Position numbers and translations under genes: made by a program
Notes under the pieces: generated by a model
Database searches by the model: none
Seen by the model: only the letters and a program-made list of their open reading frames with translations
What the model was told of the DNA's origin: nothing
Source of the DNA: a virus
IMG/VR virus record: IMGVR_UViG_3300025132_000099
Coordinates: 1 to 39,449 of that record
DNA length: 39,449 nt
Strand: one strand, 5' to 3'
Part shown: piece by piece, positions 3,005 through 30,449 of the stretch
Numbering within the stretch: position 1 is the stretch's first letter
Layout: each line of letters opens with the position of its first letter

Positions 3005-5315
3005 TTTGTTTACCTCGAAGTATGTTAACTTTTTCATCAGCTACTCGAATACGCTCACTAGACGCAAATTCAGCGTCTTCTCTTTTCATTTTCTCTAAAT
3101 CTATCTTTTCTTCAAATTCTTCACTCTTTCTGTCTTCAGTTTCTGCAAATTCTTGTGCTCTTCTTTGTAAATCTAAGGCTCGTAAATCAATTTCTCTTTC
3201 TTTTAGAGCTACTAATGGATCTTTTTTAGTATTTCCAGACTCTAACTCTTCATAAGCTTGTACTAATTCCGAAATTTGCTTAGCAATTAAAGAATCGGAC
3301 ACGTGTTCAAAGTTTTGAGGATCATTTTTAGACATTTCCACTAAATTTTGGTCGTTTTGTATTTCTAACAACACCATTGCACGTGCTTTAAAAGATATAT
3401 GTTCCATAATATGTGCTTGTAACACAGCATAAACCTGAGGATTTATGTTTACCATCCTTGTTTTCATAAAAGATAAATGAGATCTAATGTGTGCTTCATG
3501 ATCTTGTTGCATAAAAGCTTGTAAAGGTATGCCTTTCATCGCATTACTATTCTCTATAGCTGGATCTAAAGGAATTGGTTTTGGAGCAGGCTTCAATAAA
3601 CTATCAATCTGTTTAGTTCCTAAAGCTTCATAAACTCTATAATACGCCTCCCTCATATCGTGCATCTGTGGTGCACTTGATGCTACCTGCAACTGAGTCT
3701 GTGCTAAGGTGAACCTTTGAGACAGTGAAAAAACATCAGGATCAGCTACAGGTAAAACATCTACTTCTGGACCAAAGTCCATCATTTTAACAAATCTATT
3801 GCCACCATACACCGCATAGGGATATACGGGAGGGAGGTAGGTGCCAAATACATTTGCCAAAAGCTTAAATTCTTGACGCATAGAATAATAACAACGCTTG
3901 TGAATAGCACTCATGACTCTTGAACCACGTTCAAGTAAAGCTAAGGTGCTACCGACTGCTCTGTTTTGTTTATCATTACCAGTTTGTAAATCAGCTATAG
4001 CAGCAAATCTTTGACCTGCTTGTACCACAAACCCTAATAAAGAAAATAAAGTCTGACTAGGATCTTTAAAAGGTAATAACATAAATTGATCTTTAATATT
4101 TCCACCCGGAGCATCTACATCTCTAAACTCTCCTGGTTGAAAAGGTTGTTCATCATCACGTACTCTAATACCACGGGATTTAAATCCTGCTGGTAGGTTA
4201 CTTAAAGTTCCTGCATCTAGCAATTGTCTAAGTGCTGCGGTTGCCGCTCTAGATAATCCTCCTATCATATGTATCAATCCAAACCCATAAAATCCCAAAC
4301 CAGGTAAAAATTTGAAATGAACAAAATAATCTTGTCTTTTATAAGTAACATCATCTTGTTTGTAATTTCTATAAATAGATAATATCTCTTGCGAACCTTC
4401 ATCGATTGTCACTATATATGGTACTTTTACATTCTTTAAATCTTCATCAACTTCATACTCTTCTAAATCTAAATCTACGTGCATCTCTAAAATATTAAAT
4501 TGATAGTCGCTATCTTCGGTATTGTTGACACCATCTAATTGATCGTATTTATCCTGCACTTCACTGTCGTCAGATCTAGATGGAAGTATTTCTATGTCTC
4601 TGTAAAAACCTGCTCTTTGTTTTTTTAAAATATCGTTTTCACTCATTTTTAAAATGTGTGTTACACGATCACAATCTTTTAAATCCGTTGCGTAGTAAGG
4701 AACCACTAAGTCTTCAGCGGGCACAAATTTACTTACTGCTCTTTGCATCATATCATCAAAGTAAACTTTTTTAAAAGTTGAACCAGCAAGAGGAAGATAA
4801 AACAACATTTGATCAAACTCAGGAGTATATTCTTCCATCTTGTCCATCAACATATAGTTCATATACTCTTTTACTCTTTGTGCTTGTTGTTCTCTTTGTG
4901 GTGTACGCTCTCCAATAACTTGTGTTTTAACTGGACCATTAGCAGGTAATAATTCTTTATATGCTTGTGCTTGAAATTGTGTTACTGCCTCTGCTAGTAA
5001 TGGATGCGTTACCGAACTTGCTCCTGCAAAAGGTCTGCTTTCTTCAGAGTATTTAAATCCTAATAAATCTAAACCTTTTATGTAAGATTGTTCCCAATCA
5101 TTTCTTGATTCTTTGTCTTTTCTATAATCTGCAAGTAAATCATTTGCCATTCTTCCAAGAACTCTTTCATCAATTTGCTCTGCTAAATTAGAAAAAAATT
5201 CAATAGCTTGTTGCTCTTGCGAAAAATCTTGAGCTGGTTCTTCTTGTACTGGTTCCTCTTCGACTTCTATTTCAGGAACTTCCAATTCCTCTTGTGTAGT
5301 TTCTTCTTGTATCAT
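2988..5315 (-). CDS. Portal protein, P22-like
   Basis: 775 residues, within the long range typical of P22-type portals. It begins with an acidic tail rich in Glu, followed by the segment SRPFAGASSVTHPLLAEAVT at about 95-115, which is characteristic of marine podovirus portals. A stem and clip region follows, then a long Lys/Glu-rich helical C-terminus (about 690-770, coiled-coil barrel-like). The product forms the dodecameric ring at the capsid vertex through which DNA is packaged and leaves, and is the docking site for the terminase. It overlaps the gene before it by four bases and the one after by 17. The long charged C-terminal helix would match the barrel that extends into the capsid. Confidence 0.9.
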   Translation of the reverse strand: MIQEETTQEELEVPEIEVEEEPVQEEPAQDFSQEQQAIEFFSNLAEQIDERVLGRMANDLLADYRKDKESRNDWEQSYIKGLDLLGFKYSEESRPFAGASSVTHPLLAEAVTQFQAQAYKELLPANGPVKTQVIGERTPQREQQAQRVKEYMNYMLMDKMEEYTPEFDQMLFYLPLAGSTFKKVYFDDMMQRAVSKFVPAEDLVVPYYATDLKDCDRVTHILKMSENDILKKQRAGFYRDIEILPSRSDDSEVQDKYDQLDGVNNTEDSDYQFNILEMHVDLDLEEYEVDEDLKNVKVPYIVTIDEGSQEILSIYRNYKQDDVTYKRQDYFVHFKFLPGLGFYGFGLIHMIGGLSRAATAALRQLLDAGTLSNLPAGFKSRGIRVRDDEQPFQPGEFRDVDAPGGNIKDQFMLLPFKDPSQTLFSLLGFVVQAGQRFAAIADLQTGNDKQNRAVGSTLALLERGSRVMSAIHKRCYYSMRQEFKLLANVFGTYLPPVYPYAVYGGNRFVKMMDFGPEVDVLPVADPDVFSLSQRFTLAQTQLQVASSAPQMHDMREAYYRVYEALGTKQIDSLLKPAPKPIPLDPAIENSNAMKGIPLQAFMQQDHEAHIRSHLSFMKTRMVNINPQVYAVLQAHIMEHISFKARAMVLLEIQNDQNLVEMSKNDPQNFEHVSDSLIAKQISELVQAYEELESGNTKKDPLVALKEREIDLRALDLQRRAQEFAETEDRKSEEFEEKIDLEKMKREDAEFASSERIRVADEKVNILRGKQNEKKD

Positions 5316-6115
5316 AATAATTTAGTAGGTTTGTTTTTTCCTAATTTACATTTAGCTTTTACAGTACCACCAACTTTCATGTAGCCCATTCTATTTCTAA
5401 CTGCTTTTGGTAGATTTGGCAAACCTTTATTGTCAGCAGGAATTGGTTTTAGTTTTTTCATACCACCCTTTTTCATTGGTAAATTTAATAAAATGTCTTT
5501 GCCTATCTCTACAGCTTCGGGAGCTAGTAAAATCGTATCACGAACTCTTTTAATTTTTTTTAAGGTAGAATCTTTCTTTTTCTTACTTGCTGTGCCACCA
5601 GATTTTTTCTTTATGGGTGTAACTTTTTTTAATGCTTTATCTGCTTCTTCTATTGTTAGACTTTTTGGAATTTTTCCTCCATAAATCTTTTTTAATTTTT
5701 CCATATTCTTAACAAAGTCTTTACCTTTTCTAATACCACCTTTGTTATATGATTCAAACTCGTAGTCAGGTCTTTTAGTTTTTTTGTAATTTTCATAAGA
5801 AGTGTGCATCCTTGTTCTTTTAGAAGGTTGTCCGTAACCTGGTTCAATATCTTCTGTTGGATTTTTTCTTTTTCTTTTCTGTAAAACCACATTTTTAAAT
5901 TGTGCAAATTTATCCCTTACTTTTCCTGAAACACTTTTTTTAAATCTTTTGGTTGGCACTGGTACATTATATTTTTTACCTTCACGCAAAAAACCTGCTC
6001 CTATTTTACTATCTAACATTCCTTGTACTCTTTTGGTAGTGTATTTTTTAGCTTTTTTTGCTATCTTTTTTGTAGGTTCTTTAACAAAAGCTAAAGTAGT
6101 CTTATATTTGCCCAT
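5312..6115 (-). CDS. Lys-rich protein upstream of portal
   Basis: 267 residues, strongly basic throughout, beginning MGKYKTTLAFVKEPTKKIAKK. Clusters such as KKRKRK, KKKKKDS-type runs and two KGG/KKGG motifs (NKGGIRKGKDF, MKKGGMKKLK) are scattered over low-complexity sequence. The C-terminus carries GYMKVGGTVKAKCKLGK. It shares composition, not clear alignment, with the Lys-rich protein on the other side of the portal and with the repeat protein at 30003-30449. ATGA coupling to the portal gene argues for matched expression. A virion DNA-binding role is plausible but inferred only from charge and location. Confidence 0.7.
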   Translation of the reverse strand: MGKYKTTLAFVKEPTKKIAKKAKKYTTKRVQGMLDSKIGAGFLREGKKYNVPVPTKRFKKSVSGKVRDKFAQFKNVVLQKRKRKNPTEDIEPGYGQPSKRTRMHTSYENYKKTKRPDYEFESYNKGGIRKGKDFVKNMEKLKKIYGGKIPKSLTIEEADKALKKVTPIKKKSGGTASKKKKDSTLKKIKRVRDTILLAPEAVEIGKDILLNLPMKKGGMKKLKPIPADNKGLPNLPKAVRNRMGYMKVGGTVKAKCKLGKNKPTKLL

Positions 6116-6142
6116 TTTGTGCCTCCATGAATAAGTAATAGT

Positions 6143-8977
6143 TTACCATCTAAAACCAGATCTTACTAGACCCCCTTTGAAGTATCCCGTAGTTGGTAAA
6201 TCTAACATATCATTAGGAATAGGTAAAGCTAGAAACTCATCATACAAATCAGGGTTAGGTCTTCCATTTTTTAGCTTGTCGATTTTTACTACTGTCAAAT
6301 CTCCCATGTCTCCCTCAAAAAACTTTTTAAATGAACGATATGCTCGCACAGCTTCTTCTTCAGTCTTATAAGCAGCAAAGTGTTCTCGGTAATCTAAAGC
6401 ATTTGGAAATAAAAAATCCTCTCCTGTCGCTCTTCTAAAATCCGAAGATTCTTGTGCTCCTTTAACAAATACAAGTTTAAAAGGTTTATCTGGGTCAGAT
6501 CGAGCAACCTCTTTTTTCTCAAGTTTTACTCCATATTGTTTTGCAAATTTTTCCATTGCTCTTACGATAGTAGATTTTTTATTTGGTAAACCCACGGTTT
6601 CTCCATTAGGTTTTTTGTATCCTGCAGCTCCGTCTTGACCACCATATTGAATCCAGTTAGGGTTTTTATTCATACCACGTTTTCGACCATGTAAAAATTC
6701 TACTGGGTACACTCCTATATGCGTAACATCAGGTATCTCATTAGCAGCAAGTTTCGCATAAGTTTTTACTGAGTGATCTGATATACCTTGCATACTAGAT
6801 AACGGTAAATAAGGAAAGCTTTTTGCTTGCCCACTTTCTTGATAGTTTTTTAATATATCATCGCTTCTTCCAGAAAATGTTTTTCGCATAACTTTTTCTT
6901 CCACCAACGCATCTAACAATAACTCTTTGTATTGTTTTGATTGTGTATCTGTAAGTAATCCTTGTTCTACTCGTAAGTCATCTAACTCATCGAGTCTTTT
7001 TCTAATTTCATTAACTTTAATATTACTTGCTTCTAATCCAGTTTCCGCAGTTTTTGTAAAAAACTCAGCATTAAAAGGATTGATTCTTTCTTGTCCTTGT
7101 CTTTTTAACTCTCGCAACGCTTGACTAAAGTCTCCTTGCAACTCGTTAATCATCAAAATACTATCACCATTTGCCATTTTTTGTGTGGTGTACCTTGAAA
7201 AATATAAAGGATTTACTTGTAATCTAGTCATTTCATTACCCGTAGATGGCATTTTTCCTGGTGTTTGTCCAGCTATTCTTTCCATACCTTTTTCTACATT
7301 TTTAGAATTCGTTCTAGATAAATGTGTTCCATGAAAATGATTGTGTTTGTTTTCAAGTGCATTAAAAAAACCTTTTGTATGTTCAGGTAAATTTAAAATA
7401 ATTTCTCCGTATCTATCTTCACCTCCTATAGCGTAACTTGCATAACTTCGATATGCTGGAGCTAACCTCTGATCTGAGGCTTTCATATAAGAATCAAATA
7501 ATTTGTCTTCGTTTTTTCGTACTGTTTTAAAAGCTTTTAATAGTTGGTCTGGAAATTCTTGTGTTGATTTAGGTATTTCTGCACCTTTGTTATACGCCAT
7601 ATCAAAAAGATTGTTCGATCTTCTTTTTAAATCTTCTATAGTTTGTTTGACTGCTCTTTCAACTGTTGCTCTATGATCGTCTCTTAATTTACCTCCCGTG
7701 GTTTTAAACATTTTTACATATGATAAATAATCCATAGGAGTATATCCTGATTCTTGTGCAAATCGATTTAATTTATTATAATTTAAGGCACGCCCGTCTA
7801 TGAGTTCTTGTGGCATTTCTGCATGTTTGTGTAAGCCGTCTGTTATAGATATGTGTCTACTAATTCGTGCTAACCCGTTCAAATAACTATCTAGTCCTTT
7901 TCTTATATTTGCAGTATCCGCCTCTGTGTATCCACTAACATCTCTTCCTTGTGCATCTTTGCCTGTTACTTTTTTAAATCTTTTATCATTTCTAATAAAA
8001 CTAGCGATGTTTTCAAATTCTTTGTCAACAAGTTTTTGCAAAGTCATATACGCATCTTCTACTGTTTCTATACCTTTTTCTAATGATTTTTCTTGATTAT
8101 CTAAATATCGAAGATGTGTAGCACGTACGTGATACAAAGGATTGTTTTCTACCAAATTTACTAAATCTCTTTTTGATAATTTCACTCCTCTGTCTTGAGC
8201 GGCTTTTAAATAACCTCCAACAATTTTATCTTTTTTACCAGTGGCTATTTCTGTTTTTAATTGTTTTTTTAAAGTGTTTACATACTCATCCATTTGTTTT
8301 ACACCAAACCTTTGACGTAGTTTATCTAAAGCATATACAATTTGTGGATCATCCATTGTAGTTAAATCTTCTATAATCTCTTGGTTTAACTGTCCTTGTG
8401 TTTTAAATAAATTGGAATCATCAATCTCTTGTTGCTTTATCGATAAATCCATTTTATCTAAACGTGCATCGGTAGTGCTGTTCACTGATTTGTTCATACG
8501 TCTCTTAATCCATTTCACCCATTCATCGGCAGTCAACGGTTCGTTTTTTGGATGAGCTATAATCTGTTGACGCAGAACCGATGATCTTGGAACAATAGAC
8601 GTTGTATTTTTTTTAAAGTCTTGTATCTTTCCTAAATTTGTAAACGTGTCTGATGTGTCTGGCACATAGGTTTCATCTTTAGGAACTATTTTTTGTAAAG
8701 GTTTATTTTCTGCATCGAGTTGTAATGCAGCAGAGTCTCTCTTAATCGCTTTTATTTTTTGTAACTCTTCAAAACTTAATCGTTCTTCCACTTGTTGTTC
8801 CGTGGGCACAAGCTCCTTTTGTACTGGCACAAGCTCCTTTGAAAAAACATCAATATCATCCACAGATGTGGGAGCTGTTTCTTTTGGAGTAGTTGCTTTT
8901 TGAACGGCTGGTTTAATTTTTTCTTTGATTAACGAGCCAAGTCCCTCGGCTAATTTTTTAAAAATTGAACTAGCCAT
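6143..8977 (-). CDS. Large polyvalent-like phage protein (ELQxDxxQ-type region)
   Basis: 944 residues from ATG 8977; the in-frame opening at 8998 would need TTG and is less likely. Residues about 1-150 are Pro/Lys/Glu-rich and probably flexible. About 515-640 contains YGEIILNLPEH, HNHFHGTHLS and LMINELQGDFSQALRE, resembling the YxExxLxLP...HF...H...ELQSDW-Q signature shared by large phage polyvalent proteins. A later segment (about 725-760, SDHSVKTYAKLAANE) fits the helix that follows it. The C-terminus is GYFKGGLVRSGFRW. These proteins are thought to be carried in virions and delivered to the host, with undefined biochemistry. The gene lies between the winged-helix-like gene and the portal module; its start overlaps a 28-residue gene by eight bases. 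Confidence 0.72.
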   Translation of the reverse strand: MASSIFKKLAEGLGSLIKEKIKPAVQKATTPKETAPTSVDDIDVFSKELVPVQKELVPTEQQVEERLSFEELQKIKAIKRDSAALQLDAENKPLQKIVPKDETYVPDTSDTFTNLGKIQDFKKNTTSIVPRSSVLRQQIIAHPKNEPLTADEWVKWIKRRMNKSVNSTTDARLDKMDLSIKQQEIDDSNLFKTQGQLNQEIIEDLTTMDDPQIVYALDKLRQRFGVKQMDEYVNTLKKQLKTEIATGKKDKIVGGYLKAAQDRGVKLSKRDLVNLVENNPLYHVRATHLRYLDNQEKSLEKGIETVEDAYMTLQKLVDKEFENIASFIRNDKRFKKVTGKDAQGRDVSGYTEADTANIRKGLDSYLNGLARISRHISITDGLHKHAEMPQELIDGRALNYNKLNRFAQESGYTPMDYLSYVKMFKTTGGKLRDDHRATVERAVKQTIEDLKRRSNNLFDMAYNKGAEIPKSTQEFPDQLLKAFKTVRKNEDKLFDSYMKASDQRLAPAYRSYASYAIGGEDRYGEIILNLPEHTKGFFNALENKHNHFHGTHLSRTNSKNVEKGMERIAGQTPGKMPSTGNEMTRLQVNPLYFSRYTTQKMANGDSILMINELQGDFSQALRELKRQGQERINPFNAEFFTKTAETGLEASNIKVNEIRKRLDELDDLRVEQGLLTDTQSKQYKELLLDALVEEKVMRKTFSGRSDDILKNYQESGQAKSFPYLPLSSMQGISDHSVKTYAKLAANEIPDVTHIGVYPVEFLHGRKRGMNKNPNWIQYGGQDGAAGYKKPNGETVGLPNKKSTIVRAMEKFAKQYGVKLEKKEVARSDPDKPFKLVFVKGAQESSDFRRATGEDFLFPNALDYREHFAAYKTEEEAVRAYRSFKKFFEGDMGDLTVVKIDKLKNGRPNPDLYDEFLALPIPNDMLDLPTTGYFKGGLVRSGFRW

Positions 8978-10945: not shown

Positions 10946-10964
10946 TTTACTAAGAGTTATAACT

Positions 10965-11011
10965 ATGGGGCGTGACGGGCTGGACGGGCACGGCATTCCC
11001 CAGCGTAAACC
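10965..11011. repeat. GC-rich trailer, module A (divergent copy)
   Basis: A GC-rich island directly beyond the terminator of the 93-residue gene, in an otherwise AT-rich sequence. It shares the CCCAGCGT-AAC stretch with module D and lies in the same position relative to a hairpin and T-run. It lacks the tandem CGAGAA core of modules B-E, so it is only a probable member. Confidence 0.4.
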
Positions 11012-11044
11012 AAAAAAAAACCGAGCCTCCGATGAGGCTCGGTT
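11012..11044 (-). terminator. Rho-independent terminator
   Basis: CCGAGCCTC and GAGGCTCGG form a perfect nine-pair stem (extendable to eleven with flanking A-T pairs) around a four-base loop. On the minus strand it is followed by nine T residues. It ends the transcript of the two genes at 11069-11601 and insulates the terL promoter. Confidence 0.88.
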
Positions 11045-11068
11045 CCGTTGCAACGGATAGCTTGGAGG

Positions 11069-11350
11069 CTATTCGTTTGTTTCTTGACCTGACATTCTAG
11101 ACAGTAACGGTTCGACTCTTTGCATAAACTTTTGCTTTAATACTTGGATAGCATCAGCATTGGGGTAAGCAACCATAGTCTCTTCAACAACAGCCTCTAA
11201 AGTTTTGTAAAGGTGTTGCCAATTAATAGTTCCGTTTACTAGTTCTGTGGTGCTTGACTTGTGAACCTCGAAAGCTTTCTGCAATACTTCAATCTCTGTT
11301 TCCAGAGATTGAAGTCTATTGTTTAGTTGAGTAGATAAATCATTTGGCAT
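11069..11350 (-). CDS. Hypothetical helical protein
   Basis: 93 residues. The first 35 (NNRLQSLETEIEVLQKAFEV) form a heptad-patterned coiled coil; the rest is helical and neutral, ending MSGQETNE. The start shares one base with the stop of the preceding gene. It is the last gene of a two-gene transcript with a promoter at 11638-11666 and a strong terminator at 11012-11044. No family recognised. The coiled coil suggests an oligomer or a partner-binding factor. Confidence 0.7.
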   Translation of the reverse strand: MPNDLSTQLNNRLQSLETEIEVLQKAFEVHKSSTTELVNGTINWQHLYKTLEAVVEETMVAYPNADAIQVLKQKFMQRVEPLLSRMSGQETNE

Positions 11351-11601
11351 TATGCACTCTCCCTATTGTTATGTCTTACTTCCCAGATAGCTTTGAGTTT
11401 TTTATGGTAATCCTCAGCCTCTTGCTTATCCCAGAACACTCTAATAGATTGATCTTGATATCTACTATCTTTAGACCAATACAATCTTTCAAAGTAATCA
11501 ATACAATCTTTGAACTCATCAACTGTATAAAATTCTAAAGATGGATCTCCAACTAGGTTGTGATCATCTACTATATATACTGTTTGTTTTTCTGTTTTCA
11601 T
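11350..11601 (-). CDS. Hypothetical small protein
   Basis: 83 residues with a clear SD (GGAGG, seven bases before ATG). The sequence VYIVDDHNLVGDPSLEFYTV, followed by an acidic, aromatic-rich helix (CIDYFERLYWSKDSRYQD) and VFWDKQEAEDYHKKLKAIWE, suggests a compact alpha/beta fold with no catalytic motif I recognise. It is the first gene after the promoter at 11638-11666 and is followed without a gap by the 93-residue gene. Size, acidity and placement in a strip of single-gene units fit an early-expressed host-interaction factor, which is inference. Confidence 0.7.
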   Translation of the reverse strand: MKTEKQTVYIVDDHNLVGDPSLEFYTVDEFKDCIDYFERLYWSKDSRYQDQSIRVFWDKQEAEDYHKKLKAIWEVRHNNRESA

Positions 11602-11637
11602 TTTTGACCTCCAAGTCTTTTGATTAATAATACATTT

Positions 11638-11666
11638 ATTATATAAGATGTATCTTATAGATGCAA
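11638..11666 (-). promoter_or_regulatory. Sigma70-like promoter for the 83/93-residue genes
   Basis: On the minus strand TTGCAT (11666-11661) and TATAAT (11643-11638) are separated by 17 bases, close to the bacterial consensus. The spacer contains the ATCTTATA element that recurs near other transcription units. The leader to the SD at 11601 is about 25 bases. Confidence 0.6.
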
Positions 11667-11718
11667 CCTATATCTATTATAGGAAAAACCTATAAGACAT
11701 ATTATGACCAATCTTATA

Positions 11719-11801
11719 CCTGTCCTGGTGCTGCCTGGCTTCCAGGTAACTTAAACTAAAAGGAAAACCATTTTCATTTCTCAACGAGAACGAGAACGAG
11801 A
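11719..11801. repeat. Repeat module B
   Basis: In plus orientation: a GC-rich part with TGCTGC and a CCTGG-CTT-CCAGG hairpin, an AACTTAAACTAAA stretch, a weak GAAAA/TTTTC hairpin, then the core CAACGAGAACGAGAACGAGA at 11782-11801. On the minus strand the core begins two bases after the stop of the 37-residue membrane peptide gene, so the module is its 3' trailer. The core is identical in modules B, C, D and E. Confidence 0.8.
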
Positions 11802-11803
11802 AG

Positions 11804-11917
11804 TCAGATTAAACATAGCAACCAAACCACAAGTCCTAGAATTGTCAAAACAAAAATCCACCGCAAAATAAAAAAGACCAAGAACAGGAAACCTAATAAA
11901 ACTCCAACAAAGATCAT
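11804..11917 (-). CDS. 37-residue hydrophobic membrane peptide
   Basis: The peptide starts MIFVGVLLGFLFLVFFILRW and continues hydrophobic to the end, with only one charged residue (R19). It would fold as one long or two short transmembrane helices. An alternative GTG lies one codon upstream. The SD-like GGGGG seven bases before the ATG belongs to the GC-rich part of module C, and the stop is two bases before the core of module B, so the gene is framed by repeats on both sides. It could be a holin-like, superinfection-exclusion or host-membrane-directed peptide. No family recognised; a competing longer frame on the same strand is less convincing. Confidence 0.5.
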   Translation of the reverse strand: MIFVGVLLGFLFLVFFILRWIFVLTILGLVVWLLCLI

Positions 11918-11924
11918 CACGATG

Positions 11925-12017
11925 CCCCCTGTGTGCTGCACCTGGCTCCAGGCAGCAAACTAAACCTAAAACAAAAGGGCTTTGCATAAGCAAAGCCCAA
12001 CGAGAACGAGAACGAGA
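11925..12017. repeat. Repeat module C
   Basis: Same order as module B: GC-rich part with TGCTGC and CCTGG-CT-CCAGG, an AACTAAACCTAAAAC stretch, a strong hairpin, then the 20-base core at 11998-12017. In minus orientation the core starts six bases after the stop of the 116-residue gene. Confidence 0.8.
11968..11998 (-). terminator. Terminator inside module C
   Basis: GGGCTTTGC and GCAAAGCCC form a perfect nine-pair stem with a four-base loop, followed on the minus strand by TTTTGTTTT. It lies right after the gene at 12024-12374. Confidence 0.8.
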
Positions 12018-12023
12018 AAACCA

Positions 12024-12374
12024 TCAGTGTGCCCCTCCCCAGTCGCTGTAGTAAGGTCTATTGTTTTCTGCGTGTCCTTCCATAAACCTAGCCATTACCT
12101 CAACCACTTCGTCATCATCTATATAAATAGAAGCACCGTCAAACCAATCTAGAAAATAATATTTTATTGTGTTTTCATTGTCATACACTCTGAACTCATC
12201 AGAAGGACCACCCCAAGACAACTGCCAACGAAAATATCCGATAGGTTGATTTCCGAATGTATCTGGGGGTACATAGTCAAAACCTAACCCCTCCAGCTTT
12301 CCTTCTTTTAATTGTGTTAACCTGCCTTTGTATTCTTCTTCTATTCTACTTTTGCAATTTTTATAATCTTTCAT
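12024..12374 (-). CDS. Hypothetical protein, 116 residues
   Basis: Starts MKDYKNCKSRIEEEYKGRLT after a GGAGAG ribosome binding site. It is acidic and aromatic-rich in its second half (GYFRWQLSWGGPSDEFRVYD, YYFLDWFDGASIYIDDDEVV), which suggests a small beta-rich domain, and ends YYSDWGGAH. The GGPSDEFRVY-type segment resembles conserved small hypothetical proteins of phages and plasmids, without a named function I can give. It is transcribed alone: the shared upstream motif at 12392-12412 lies before it and the terminator of module C after it. An early accessory protein is the likely class. Confidence 0.75.
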   Translation of the reverse strand: MKDYKNCKSRIEEEYKGRLTQLKEGKLEGLGFDYVPPDTFGNQPIGYFRWQLSWGGPSDEFRVYDNENTIKYYFLDWFDGASIYIDDDEVVEVMARFMEGHAENNRPYYSDWGGAH

Positions 12375-12391
12375 TTTTTTTCTCTCCTTAT

Positions 12392-12412
12392 TTTATATAA
12401 GATATATCACAC
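12392..12412 (-). promoter_or_regulatory. Shared upstream motif / probable promoter
   Basis: The minus strand reads GTGATATATCTTATATAAA, ending in a TATAAA -10-like box about 11 bases before the SD of the 116-residue gene. The TATATCTTATAT block matches copies at 12771 and 27112. A -35 is poor (TTTATG at 17 bases). Confidence 0.45.
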
Positions 12413-12460
12413 ACCATAAAAAAAGCAAGAGTTTTTTTTCTACCGACAGGGATTATTAAA

Positions 12461-12556
12461 CGGACCCGGGTCCTGTGCTGCCCAGCGTTCAGCAGCAACT
12501 GAAACTAAAACTAAAACCTCGTTCTCGTTTCAACGAGAACGAGAACGAGAACGAGG
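12461..12556. repeat. Repeat module D
   Basis: Begins with the 12-base palindrome GGACCCGGGTCC, then TGTGCTGCCCAGCGTTCAGC, an AACTGAAACTAAAACTAAAAC stretch, a CTCGTTCTCGTT hairpin arm, and the core at 12531-12550 extended by one more CGAG unit. In minus orientation it follows the stop of the 55-residue gene by about 14 bases. Confidence 0.8.
12505..12543 (-). terminator. Terminator inside module D
   Basis: The core repeat itself pairs with an inverted copy: CTCGTTCTCGTT (12518-12529) and AACGAGAACGAG (12532-12543). On the minus strand the hairpin is followed by GTTTTAGTTTTAGTTT. Confidence 0.6.
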
Positions 12557-12570
12557 AATAGGTTTACTAT

Positions 12571-12738
12571 TTATTTTTTGTCGTTGTTCTTCACCTCCGA
12601 CTCTTGCCAACTGTTTCCGTTAGCAATGCACTTGCCCACACCCACCAAGGTATAAGTTTTATTAGGTTGAGGTTTATCTTGTATAAAACCTTTTTCTCTG
12701 CCGTACTTCATCAACCCTTTTATAAATTCATCTTTCAT
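12571..12738 (-). CDS. Small hypothetical protein, 55 residues
   Basis: An AAGGAG box lies six bases before the ATG. The protein begins MKDEFIKGLMKYGREKGFIQ, continues with a Gly/Val strand (TYTLVGVGKCIAN) and ends in a charged tail (ESEVKNNDKK). It is a single-gene unit between the shared upstream motif at 12771-12791 and the terminator of module D. No known family. The SD, plausible composition and flanking signals support it as real. Confidence 0.6.
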   Translation of the reverse strand: MKDEFIKGLMKYGREKGFIQDKPQPNKTYTLVGVGKCIANGNSWQESEVKNNDKK

Positions 12739-12770
12739 AATTTTCTCCTTATTTATTGTCCTACCCTATC

Positions 12771-12791
12771 ACATATAAGATATATTGCAAC
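12771..12791 (-). promoter_or_regulatory. Shared upstream motif
   Basis: The minus strand reads GTTGCAATATATCTTATATG, nearly identical to the copy at 27112-27129 and close to the one at 29984-30001. It precedes the 55-residue gene by about 33 bases and is placed as a promoter would be, though a separate standard -35 is not clear. Confidence 0.45.
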
Positions 12792-12798
12792 TATTTTT

Positions 12799-13209
12799 TT
12801 ACATATCTTTCATCATAACCAATGTCTCCCGGACCCGGGACAGCCCCGGAGCAGCGTTGAACTGAAACTTAACTGAACCAAGGTTCGTGATGCAAGGGCA
12901 ACGAGAACGAGAACGAGATTCTCGCACCTTGAGAATTTCAAGCATACTGTCCTTGCTAGTCAGATGCAGAATGAAGGATTTGCCACCAGATTGTAATCTT
13001 TTTAAATGCCAAGCAAATTGATAGTTGCTAATACCATAATTCTTACCTCTATTACATTTCAATTCTATCCAAAATTCTTTACCTTCAATACAAGCATTTA
13101 TGTCAGGGATTCCGTTTATAGTAGAGGATTCTATTCTAAAAAAATGCCAAGTTGGTTCAACCTTTTGAATCTGGTTAATCCAAGACCACAATTTTGATTC
13201 AGTAATCAT
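12799..13209 (-). CDS. VRR-NUC-like nuclease with repeat-derived C-terminal tail
   Basis: 136 residues from ATG 13209; a GTG at 13230 is possible. The order GIPDINACIEG, EFWIELKC and Q-x-x-WH (SNYQFAWHLKRL, then SGGKSFIL) gives the D-(x)n-E-x-K nuclease core and the helix typical of small phage VRR-NUC proteins. These act on branched or flap DNA, as Holliday-junction or recombination nucleases. The domain should end near MLEILKV. The remaining 40 or so residues (RESRSRSR, then CPCITNLG and on) are the translation of repeat module E, so the tail is probably a fusion by repeat insertion. A TATACT box ten bases before the ATG suggests a nearly leaderless mRNA. Confidence 0.75.
   Translation of the reverse strand: MITESKLWSWINQIQKVEPTWHFFRIESSTINGIPDINACIEGKEFWIELKCNRGKNYGISNYQFAWHLKRLQSGGKSFILHLTSKDSMLEILKVRESRSRSRCPCITNLGSVKFQFNAAPGLSRVRETLVMMKDM
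12829..12918. repeat. Repeat module E, inside the VRR-NUC frame
   Basis: Shares GGACCCGGG, CAGCGTT and AACTGAAACTTAACTGAAC with module D and the identical 20-base core at 12899-12918. A short CGAGAA/TTCTCG hairpin adjoins the core. Unlike B-D it does not follow a stop codon: the nuclease frame runs through it and ends at 12799. Confidence 0.8.
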
Positions 13210-14341: not shown

Positions 14342-14498
14342 AATACAAATAGAAGATTATAGATTGTCAAGAGATGCAGTTGAACAATCAGATTTGTATA
14401 AAACTATGAATAGAGTATCAGACTCTATTCATAGTTTTAAGTTGGTAACTTTAACAACACCTTTAGATGCAGATAGGAGTGAAAATGTTAAACTATAA
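14325..14498 (+). CDS. Small hypothetical protein, 57 residues
   Basis: ATG at 14325 lies 11 bases after AGGAGG, inside the end of the DUF6915-like gene (17-base overlap), and the stop overlaps the next start region by 14 bases. The product begins MINEYKIQIEDYRLSRDAVE and ends TTPLDADRSENVKL. It is acidic-neutral with amphipathic helices. Without it there would be an unexplained gap in an otherwise gap-free operon. Function unknown. Confidence 0.6.
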   Translation: MINEYKIQIEDYRLSRDAVEQSDLYKTMNRVSDSIHSFKLVTLTTPLDADRSENVKL

Positions 14499-16564: not shown

Positions 16565-17068
16565 TTAGTCTTTTTCAGGCGTAATGTCAATAATATTCAC
16601 ACCTTCGCCTATTTTATTTTCAAGTTCTTGTAACCTTTTTTCTAATTGTTCTCTGTTCATACCTTCCAGCGTATTATGAGTTACTTCTTTTTTATCTACA
16701 AATAAACCAGCGAGTTGTCCAGAACGGTATTCTGAATTAATTGCTCCTGTATACTGCCCTTTAGCTTCAGCACCATCACGCAGTCTTTCAAAGGTTTTAT
16801 ATCTTCGCAGCTTATCCTTTTCATATTTTTCTTTTTCGATAGCTAACTGGTTTTCCAGGTAACGGCAAACATGAGGATTTAAATCTGGATTAGTTAATTT
16901 ACTAGCGAGAACCATAGCGGTGGATCGATTCTTGGTTTTATATCCAGCTTTTAATAAAGCATCTGCTTTTGTTATTTGACCCCAATGCTTTACTAGAATA
17001 TGAACAAACTCTTTTTGTTTGGTTGTCAAGTCATCTTGTGTACGAAGTATAGCTTTTTTCTGCGGCAT
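16565..17068 (-). CDS. terS: Terminase small subunit (probable)
   Basis: 167 residues. The N-terminal block LTTKQKEFVHILVKHWGQIT, followed by KADALLKAGYK and ASKLTNPDLNPHVCRYLENQ, matches the helix-turn-helix DNA-binding opening of Terminase_2-type small subunits. A coiled coil follows (LAIEKEKYEKDKLRRYKTFE), then an acidic C-terminus. Small subunits form rings, recognise the packaging site and stimulate the large subunit. It is the last gene of a minus-strand unit and lies 5.7 kb from terL instead of beside it. A replication or regulatory HTH protein is the alternative. Confidence 0.75.
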   Translation of the reverse strand: MPQKKAILRTQDDLTTKQKEFVHILVKHWGQITKADALLKAGYKTKNRSTAMVLASKLTNPDLNPHVCRYLENQLAIEKEKYEKDKLRRYKTFERLRDGAEAKGQYTGAINSEYRSGQLAGLFVDKKEVTHNTLEGMNREQLEKRLQELENKIGEGVNIIDITPEKD

Positions 17069-17744: not shown

Positions 17745-18097
17745 AATCTTCTTTTGTTTTTTGACTTGTATGTGGGTAGTTGACTATCGCAATTGCTACA
17801 TACAAATCGTAAATTTTCTACTCTGTTATCATTATAAACTCCATTTATGTGGTCTAATATTAACACTAATGGTTTGTTGTTCCAGATAGGTTGTAAACCA
17901 CATATTTGACAAGTATATTCTACTACATTATATGTACGCAGTCTCTCTACGATTCGATGTCTTGGGTGTGTTGAATTTACAACAAATACCTCAGAGTCAC
18001 GCTTTCTGTTGGTCAGTAAGCGTTTCTCTTGAGGCGTGAGGCGTTTTCCTTGTGATATTTTTTTATAAACAAGTGACTTTTTACTACTTGACGTCAC
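17741..18097 (-). CDS. HNH endonuclease
   Basis: 118 residues, probably from the GTG at 18097 (no clear SD). The C-terminal half has CQICG (about 75-79), a conserved LILDHINGVYNDNRVENLRF (DH and the HNH-type N) and CSNCDSQ, so two CxxC pairs hold a structural zinc around the beta-beta-alpha metal fold. The N-terminus is very basic, as in DNA-binding homing-type nucleases. It may be a free-standing homing endonuclease or a packaging helper: HNH proteins next to terminase genes assist cos cutting in several phages, and terS lies two genes away. Confidence 0.85.
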   Translation of the reverse strand: MTSSSKKSLVYKKISQGKRLTPQEKRLLTNRKRDSEVFVVNSTHPRHRIVERLRTYNVVEYTCQICGLQPIWNNKPLVLILDHINGVYNDNRVENLRFVCSNCDSQLPTYKSKNKRRL

Positions 18098-18287
18098 TTT
18101 TTTGCAGGATCTTATCTATTAAATCTTCTTTCTTAACATGTTCTTTCTTGGCTCTGTATGAAATACTATCGTCCACTAACTTAGCTATTTGTTGATCTGG
18201 TGTCCTAAATTTATCATTAGCTAATCCTTTTAATAACCTAAAAGTGTTTACTCGTATTGCAATACTTCTCCATTTTGTTGTGTCCAT
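18084..18287 (-). CDS. Ribbon-helix-helix-like DNA-binding protein
   Basis: 67 residues with SD AAGGAG. The segment WRSIAIRVNTFRLLKGLAND followed by RTPDQQIAKLVDDSI has the strand-helix-helix pattern of Arc/MetJ-type repressors, with alternating R-S-I-A-I-R on the strand that would lie in the DNA groove. It could control the promoters at 18901-18964 or others. An antitoxin is also possible, but no toxin gene is adjacent. It overlaps the HNH gene by 14 bases. Confidence 0.6.
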   Translation of the reverse strand: MDTTKWRSIAIRVNTFRLLKGLANDKFRTPDQQIAKLVDDSISYRAKKEHVKKEDLIDKILQKSDVK

Positions 18288-30002: not shown

Positions 30003-30449
30003 TTATTTTTTCCTCATTCCTCTAACACTTTTAATAACTTTGGTTTTACTAGGTTTTATTGTGCCAAGATTTTTCATTGCAGGCACTACAAGTTTTTTAA
30101 TACCTTTTCTAATTAAAGCTTTTCTGCTAACTGGTATTGGCAAAGGACCTAAAAATTTATTAAAATTTTTCATAACATCCCCTAAGTTAACTTTCTTAGT
30201 TTTGGCTCCAGATTTACCTTGTTTAATTTTGGCTCCAATTCCTTTACCAGCAGCTCCAATTCTTATACCACCTTCTTGAGCTCTCATCATTTTAGCTCCG
30301 CCTTTTGCGTAACCTTTAGCCATTTTACCACCCATGGCTTTCATCATTTTAGCTCCGCCTTTTGCGTAACCTTTTGATTTCATCATTTTACCACCCATGG
30401 CTTTCATCATTTTAGATCCACCTTTGGCATATCCTTTACTTTTTCTCAT
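30003..30449 (-). CDS. Lys/Gly-rich protein with KGYAKGG repeats
   Basis: 148 residues. The N-terminal 60 hold three imperfect copies of KGYAKGGAKMMKAMGGKM, then a Gly/Lys linker (IRIGAAGKGIGAKIKQG) and a basic C-terminal domain (FLGPLPIPVSRKALIRKGIK). It has a very high pI. AGGAG precedes the ATG. The repeats are encoded by 57- and 63-base units. Similar K-G-G-rich proteins are common in marine phages and are thought to be virion or DNA-associated, without proof. Confidence 0.75.
   Translation of the reverse strand: MRKSKGYAKGGSKMMKAMGGKMMKSKGYAKGGAKMMKAMGGKMAKGYAKGGAKMMRAQEGGIRIGAAGKGIGAKIKQGKSGAKTKKVNLGDVMKNFNKFLGPLPIPVSRKALIRKGIKKLVVPAMKNLGTIKPSKTKVIKSVRGMRKK
30291..30435. repeat. Tandem 57/63-base coding repeats
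   Basis: The TTTAG-TCCGCC block starts at 30291, 30348 and (diverged) 30411, giving periods of 57 and 63 bases. Copy number could change by slippage or recombination without shifting the frame. Confidence 0.7.

Follow-up and report, generated by a model that had tools for sequence, protein, structure and literature searches.

A strand-specific hexamer word behind stop codons in HTVC023P-type pelagiphages, and its possible role at the 3' ends of small phage genes

What does a short repeat do when it stands, time after time, directly behind the stop codons of small phage genes? The question is raised by IMG/VR virus record IMGVR_UViG_3300025132_000099, of which positions 1 to 39,449 were analysed (39,449 nucleotides (nt), hereafter the window). 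A 20-base core, CAACGAGAACGAGAACGAGA, lies there in exact copies at 11782-11801, 11998-12017, 12531-12550 and 12899-12918, all on the plus strand, and each copy is part of a longer module. On the gene (minus) strand the core is (CTCGTT)3-4 and reads TCTCGTTCTCGTTCTCGTTG. Our answer is that this hexamer word probably marks the end of each gene's message. We tentatively read the modules as 3'-end elements of independently promoted small phage genes, at which transcription may end, and hold this as a possibility short of confidence. The genes (lengths in amino acids, aa) and modules of the region are as follows.

12799..13209, minus strand: VRR-NUC-type endonuclease open reading frame (ORF) with phrog_2165/phrog_93 matches; its 3' end crosses module E
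12820..12938, minus strand: module E, a stem-enclosed word run (core 12899-12918) in the VRR-NUC C-terminus, followed by a T-rich linker and a GC-rich segment
12571..12738, minus strand: 55-aa gene of the conserved family ..DKPxxGKxYALTGG..CIANGNSWxESEV
12463..12570, minus strand: module D, 15 nt after the 55-aa gene, with four words at 12531-12555, a hairpin at 12517-12550, a T-rich tail and a GC-rich segment
12024..12374, minus strand: 116-aa gene, whose place relative to the 55-aa gene varies among relatives
11928..12023, minus strand: module C, a word run (core 11998-12017), a terminator-like hairpin at 11977-11998 with a T-rich tail, then a GC-rich hairpin
11804..11917, minus strand: 37-aa hydrophobic (transmembrane, TM) gene, its stop 2 nt ahead of module B
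11731..11803, minus strand: module B, 2 nt after the TM gene, with a word run (core 11782-11801), an A/T-rich linker and a CCTGG..CCAGG hairpin
11350..11601, minus strand: 83-aa ORF, function unassigned
11069..11350, minus strand: 93-aa ORF, function unassigned
10965..11060, minus strand: module A, an intrinsic terminator at 11017-11046 and a GC-rich segment behind the 93-aa gene, without the word

The core was absent from all 100 dinucleotide-shuffled versions of the window, and no other non-trivial 12-mer family of the record is repeated as often as the one to which it belongs; at the 12531 copy the word run reaches 12555. The four positions named in the initial annotation are exact. Modules B, C, D and E form one repeat family of 55 nt with 60-82% identity, which bears out the shared build proposed for them. 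On the minus strand the word run begins 2 nt past the stop in B (stop 11804), 6 nt past that of the 116-aa gene in C (stop 12024), with the TM gene beginning directly beyond the module, and 15 nt past the stop in D (stop 12571), close to the 2-14 bases claimed; the modular series of small gene and trailing repeat is likewise supported. Two members fit less well. In module E no stop precedes the core, which is read in frame within the VRR-NUC ORF 12799-13209 as ...VRESRSRSRCPC..., giving a C-terminal ...RESRSRSR...; the frame through the words is also open in the relatives G013 (L014) and G029 (L136). The segment 10965-11046 (module A), which falls within the span first annotated (10965-12918), has a strong intrinsic terminator but lacks the core.

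How far does the word extend beyond this record? The window belongs to an HTVC023P-type pelagiphage: its TerL is 76.6% identical to that of Pelagibacter phage HTVC023P over 96%, and VRR-NUC and other genes match too. The region itself found no DNA match among annotated phage records. A core scan of viral contigs, all metagenomic and mostly partial, returned 18 stretches, and 17 of them have a TerL or VRR-NUC of HTVC023P type, L001 being the exception. The L001 match, without a phage marker, is a coding coincidence, and the extra contigs L026-L036, none with HTVC023P-type markers, were taken as chance or coding matches. The core is thus neither restricted to one locus nor free of a conserved position, recurring in other marine phages after the stops of unrelated genes. 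Homologs of the 55-aa gene, fetched without using the word, are surrounded by the same word vocabulary: at 54 non-redundant loci retrieved by the 55-aa protein, CGTTCTCG occurs 255 times in sense versus 2 in antisense, and CTCGTT 626 versus 54. In the TerL tree, 26 word-holding rows form one clade (100/100), inside which the wordless HTVC023P is nested. HTVC027P also lacks the word, and HTVC023P, HTVC027P and 023Pt_psg01 have different repeats at the matching region.

The placement of the word is equally constrained. Across 78 contigs, YYCGTT words between VRR-NUC and TerL number 4.55/kb in sense versus 1.02/kb in antisense, and elsewhere 0.25/kb and 0.71/kb, so that the words are confined to this region; the 78 include some near-duplicates, and an exact test on them overstates the number of independent observations. 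A gap test was made with genes that have homologs in at least 3 other contigs, the words being shifted rigidly at random inside each gap. Of 100 gaps that hold words, 51 have the first one within 10 nt past the stop, against 13.1 expected and a maximum of 25 in 2000 shifts, while the last word stands within 10 nt ahead of the next start in 0 gaps versus 17.5 expected. This stop-hugging is strongest, yet not solely, after VRR-NUC: 40 of 52 VRR-NUC stops have it, as do 12 of 54 stops of other genes (3.8 expected), and the distance from stop to word is 0-11 nt at genuine TM genes.

It is the stop-hugging test that ties the word to genes. A scan of the region for opposite-strand genes, which would part gene strand from DNA strand, found no convincing case; the genes all run one way, and the two strands are therefore inseparable by this route. 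Same-strand bias alone would consequently also follow from copying within one operon direction, as expected of selfish or neutral repeats that have no expression role, are homogenised by copying and serve through module homology as seams for gene swaps. Such repeats could equally run in frame through the VRR-NUC end, but they should not begin within 10 nt of stops nor shun starts so strictly. Placement also bears on signals for packaging, chi-like recombination protection or replication near the terminase genes. A short oriented motif clustered on one strand near terL would suit them, but the words track stop codons, and the terminase small subunit (a weak Terminase_2 match, 16565-17068) lies 3 kb off, past an opposite-strand operon. 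HTVC023P and HTVC027P are wordless despite having the same host, which argues against a host-set signal, and we regard this explanation as very improbable.

The spelling of the word adds a further dimension. Nearly one spelling is used per genome, CTCGTT in the window and CCCGTT in many close relatives; the counts of CCCGTT to CTCGTT are 15:2 in G029 (L136), 0:13 in the window and 1:12 in G013. G029 is a close relative, with a TerL 91% identical to that of the window, and has the same modules in the other spelling. A scan for CCCGTT arrays gave 38 stretches, most with HTVC023P-type markers, with one spelling per genome on the sense strand; these stretches were chosen by the word, so that the spelling is expected, while strand, place and uniformity are not. 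In the VRR-NUC tree a CCCGTT clade takes in the window and G013, and no fewer than 2-3 spelling changes are needed to account for the well-supported branches. As judged from these sequences, the spelling has switched genome-wide more than once. The clade of G033, L138 and L141 has a sense-only string of its own, [AT]CGCC[CT]TT, found in G033 5 times in this region and once elsewhere. The functional unit consequently looks like the hexamer word (CTCGTT or CCCGTT), not the exact 20-mer that had been taken as the core.

In G029 two modules have about 46 nt in common, with 2 differences. This stretch, the uniformity within genomes and the switching among relatives together point to copying between sites, and the words may have spread and stayed uniform in each genome by duplication or gene conversion. 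Gene order is also fluid. The 116-aa gene follows the 55-aa gene in the window, precedes it in L136 and is absent from L014, and in L138 it adjoins VRR-NUC without a 55-aa gene. Gene units are thus reordered or exchanged among relatives while the words stay, and uniform modules would provide the seams. This bears on the suggestion that the core might tag a mobile gene-cassette system: the 116-aa gene does change sides in close relatives, but no recombinase or attachment-site logic for gene exchange was found, and the cassette-like behaviour would work by homology. An integron attC-like reading was set aside, with a GTTRRRY-like string in module C only and no integrase seen. Near-uniform spelling, repeated genome-wide switches, the common 46 nt and the changes of gene order are also what neutral repeats would produce.

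The hairpins do not yield so easily to neutrality, as pairing is kept while sequence changes. The stem before the TM gene is GGGCUUUGC..GCAAAGCCC in the window, GGGCAACGCA..UGCGUUGCCC in G013 (L014) and AACGGGAAAUGC..GCAUUUCCCGUU in L136; the sequence is wholly replaced and the pairing is perfect in all three. The hairpin of module D at 12517-12550 consists of the words and an inverted copy of them, and relatives of module D likewise form a stem from the words. Taken with the placement at stops, this makes purely neutral repeats an improbable account. An independent scan of the region for intrinsic terminators found 6 versus 1.7 expected, and among them are the terminator-like hairpins noticed earlier, at 11998-11977 in module C (tail TTTTGTTTTA) and, made of core sequence, at 12550-12517 in module D (tail TTTTAGTTTT). 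A GC-rich hairpin with a T run is found in modules A, C and D and not in B or E. Folding compared with shuffles gives z -3.9 for module D and 0.58, no better than shuffles, for module B; for B and E folding gains little or nothing over shuffles, and the word, not the hairpin, is therefore the common denominator.

If the modules end transcription units, where do the next ones start? One box of the window is of interest here.

12770..12790, no strand assigned: ATATAAGATATAT-type box upstream of the 55-aa gene, a putative promoter or operator

Similar ATATAAGATATAT-like boxes lie at 12390-12410 and 11636-11660, so that the promoter-like elements previously placed at 12771, 12392 and 11638 do have a common sequence, but sigma-70-like sites in the region (9 versus 8.7 expected) are not above chance. 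Among 104 gaps, the promoter-like site lies past the last word in 38, between words in 11 and before them in 4, and none was found in 51. In the related HTVC027P, each of gp30, gp33 and gp34 from the matching region is expressed on its own schedule (PMC12753301), a pattern compatible with units that start and stop independently. As a separate observation, a promoter-like TTGACAxxTATCCCATGATGTCGTATCGTT with a fixed spacer, possibly an operator, is conserved upstream of genes that follow modules (L017, L101, L108 and others).

How, then, might the modules act? Once translation has stopped and the ribosome is released, the pyrimidine-rich run of words (UCUCGUUCUCGUUCUCGUU) would be left as naked RNA. 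The exposed run could load a 3'-end factor, with Rho of the host as the likeliest one, and transcription would end near the structured GC-rich segment downstream of the words; copies C and D, with an intrinsic hairpin and a T-rich tail, may terminate alone. Rho-type termination is, we infer, the likeliest single mechanism. The first 40 nt past word-trailed stops are 72% C+U and 7-13% A. By criteria for Rho utilization (rut) sites, namely more C than G and regularly spaced C over 78 nt (PMC6407284), 46 of 63 word-trailed stops are rut-like versus 52 of 659 control stops (8%).

Several observations weigh against termination by Rho or against the word as a general gene end. With their dinucleotides shuffled, the word sites still reach a mean of 39.6 and a maximum of 47 on the same scale, versus 46 observed, and the rut-like signal is mostly base composition, not C spacing; regular C spacing was accordingly dropped as proof of rut, since composition alone scores nearly as high. 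The idea that the words are preferentially unpaired RNA was also given up, as they are unpaired at 0.44 versus 0.42 in their surroundings, with no excess. Many word sites are without an intrinsic terminator, and the U-tract is weak in G013. Gaps closer to terL often have no words, words also occur inside reading frames (the VRR-NUC end), and HTVC023P is wordless though nested in the word clade by TerL. Of the earlier proposal of a terminator or Rho-loading site, the intrinsic hairpins at some copies and the rut-like composition stand, while the C spacing adds little beyond composition.

The strict sense orientation and stop proximity would also suit an RNA-level site other than Rho, at which a phage or host RNA-binding protein, a ribonuclease or a small RNA reads the word and processes or stabilises the 3' end, with downstream hairpins protecting it. 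Spelling differs among close relatives, however, and no candidate factor was identified. Binding of GAG repeats by the trp RNA-binding attenuation protein (TRAP) was tested and rejected, TrpBP (PF02081) being absent from 18 records. Rfam 15 gave no family above the gathering score in the region (best E 0.07, to the unrelated SorY). A match to the CAACGAG segment of 16S was discarded, as it covers only 7 nt and its final G belongs to the search pattern. The 55-aa protein was rejected as cognate factor because its motif is absent from the word-bearing G016, G005, G014 and G008. We consider such a site unlikely.

The main rival to Rho-type termination is a stoperator-like protein site, in which a phage-coded protein binds the word as double-stranded DNA and blocks or regulates transcription one way, the spelling tracking the specificity of the protein. 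Mycobacteriophage stoperators, too, are oriented with transcription, have many sites per genome and differ in spelling from phage to phage (PMC6550527). The window holds one candidate reader.

18087-18287, minus strand: 67-aa ribbon-helix-helix (RHH)-like gene, family MDxxKWxSxAV.., common to word-bearing phages

Of 15 records with the word, 12 have this gene; of 5 wordless records, none does. However, the best fold matches of its product, MatP and Arc, are non-significant (best E 1.3). The window (CTCGTT) and G029 (CCCGTT) have the same presumed DNA-reading strand, WRSIAIRV, whereas other CTCGTT phages have WKSCAVDI; the protein thus does not co-vary with the word, which makes the 67-aa protein an improbable reader. 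The sites are moreover post-stop and without a genome-wide spread. A stoperator-like role is hence rather unlikely, even as the foremost competitor. A more general idea stays doubtful: that the post-stop word is a lineage-specific, genome-wide uniform sequence read by a dedicated trans-acting factor, of phage or host, that defines mRNA 3' ends. Its spelling would then switch in concert at a dozen or so sites, as a rewritable end-of-gene signal.

The initial annotation knew of no described phage element of this structure. No paper in the literature searched describes the element, but two close analogues had gone unnamed, the PeSL cassettes of T4-type phages and the stoperators; both are offered as the nearest analogues only, not as families to which the modules belong. 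Lineage-specific short repeats at gene boundaries are also known from the start-associated sequences and other oriented intergenic repeats of mycobacteriophages; the start-associated repeats lie at gene starts, the pelagiphage words at gene ends. PeSLs are intergenic units of stem-loop terminator and promoter that separate small genes, and a part in gene shuffling is attributed to them (PMC4503421). Both systems place intergenic units between small genes, and shuffling among relatives is seen here in the moves of the 116-aa gene. The differences are that the common part here is a hexamer word array right after the stop, with hairpins that vary and may be absent; that promoter and word do not look like one composite motif, a promoter-like site lying after the last word in 38 of the 104 gaps and none being found in 51; and that these phages are podoviruses of HTVC023P type. 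In Cluster A mycobacteriophages, stoperators are 13-bp sites that are scattered over the genome and to which the immunity repressor binds; like the words they are short, asymmetric, many per genome, in one orientation to transcription and variable in motif among related phages (PMC6550527). In contrast, the words are tandem hexamers confined to one region and hugging stops, in phages classed as lytic, and no co-varying binding protein was found, the 67-aa RHH-like protein being the only candidate. With rut sites the words have in common a ribosome-free, C/U-rich sense-strand RNA after the stop, then structured RNA (PMC6407284); natural rut is degenerate and about 78 nt long, whereas the word is a fixed hexamer, uniform across the genome and often arranged in short runs.

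Other features were seen alongside. The VRR-NUC ORF passes in frame via the words into the GC-rich segment in the window, L014, L136 and L073, with SRSRSR tails, and gains about 40 or more residues. The 55-aa family is highly conserved (DKPEAGKVYALTGGPGSRCIANGNSWxESEV) in about 94 viral contigs (including L042-L115), with no Pfam match and no cellular relative in a scan of genome contigs. A plus-strand ORF, MGR..KRKPKKNRAS.EAR.RCNG (window 10964-11060), overlaps module A and is open also in L014 near 4578, despite strongly differing DNA in its first part. Between the VRR-NUC and 55-aa genes of L073, positions 3620-3992 are a strongly folded non-coding stretch (z -5.4) behind a promoter-like TTGACA..TATGTT, a candidate structured RNA with GATCAGT..ACTGATC-type arms and no Rfam match. 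Upstream of terL, L118 (023Pt_psg01) has repeated GGGCCCACCC[AT]CCCC and GCTCGCTCGC arrays in intergenic gaps at 5829-8880, and in the matching region of L117 (Pelagibacter phage HTVC027P) positions 6175-6295 of the minus strand match the Rfam Flavobacterium-1 RNA (RF02976, 90.2 bits, E 7.9e-16). The window also contains a perfect 18-nt inverted repeat with a 5-nt loop at 14399-14439, TAAAACTATGAATAGAGT, and a 63-bp tandem repeat of 2.7 copies at 30280-30438, within or near ORF 30003-30449.

The word-bearing phages belong to a very abundant virus group that infects the ocean bacterium SAR11. A gene-end word that changes its spelling genome-wide would, if true, give a handle on termination in these phages, and would offer a clean natural experiment in the concerted evolution of many short sites. 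The modules may also provide a mechanism for the mosaic gene order of the region.

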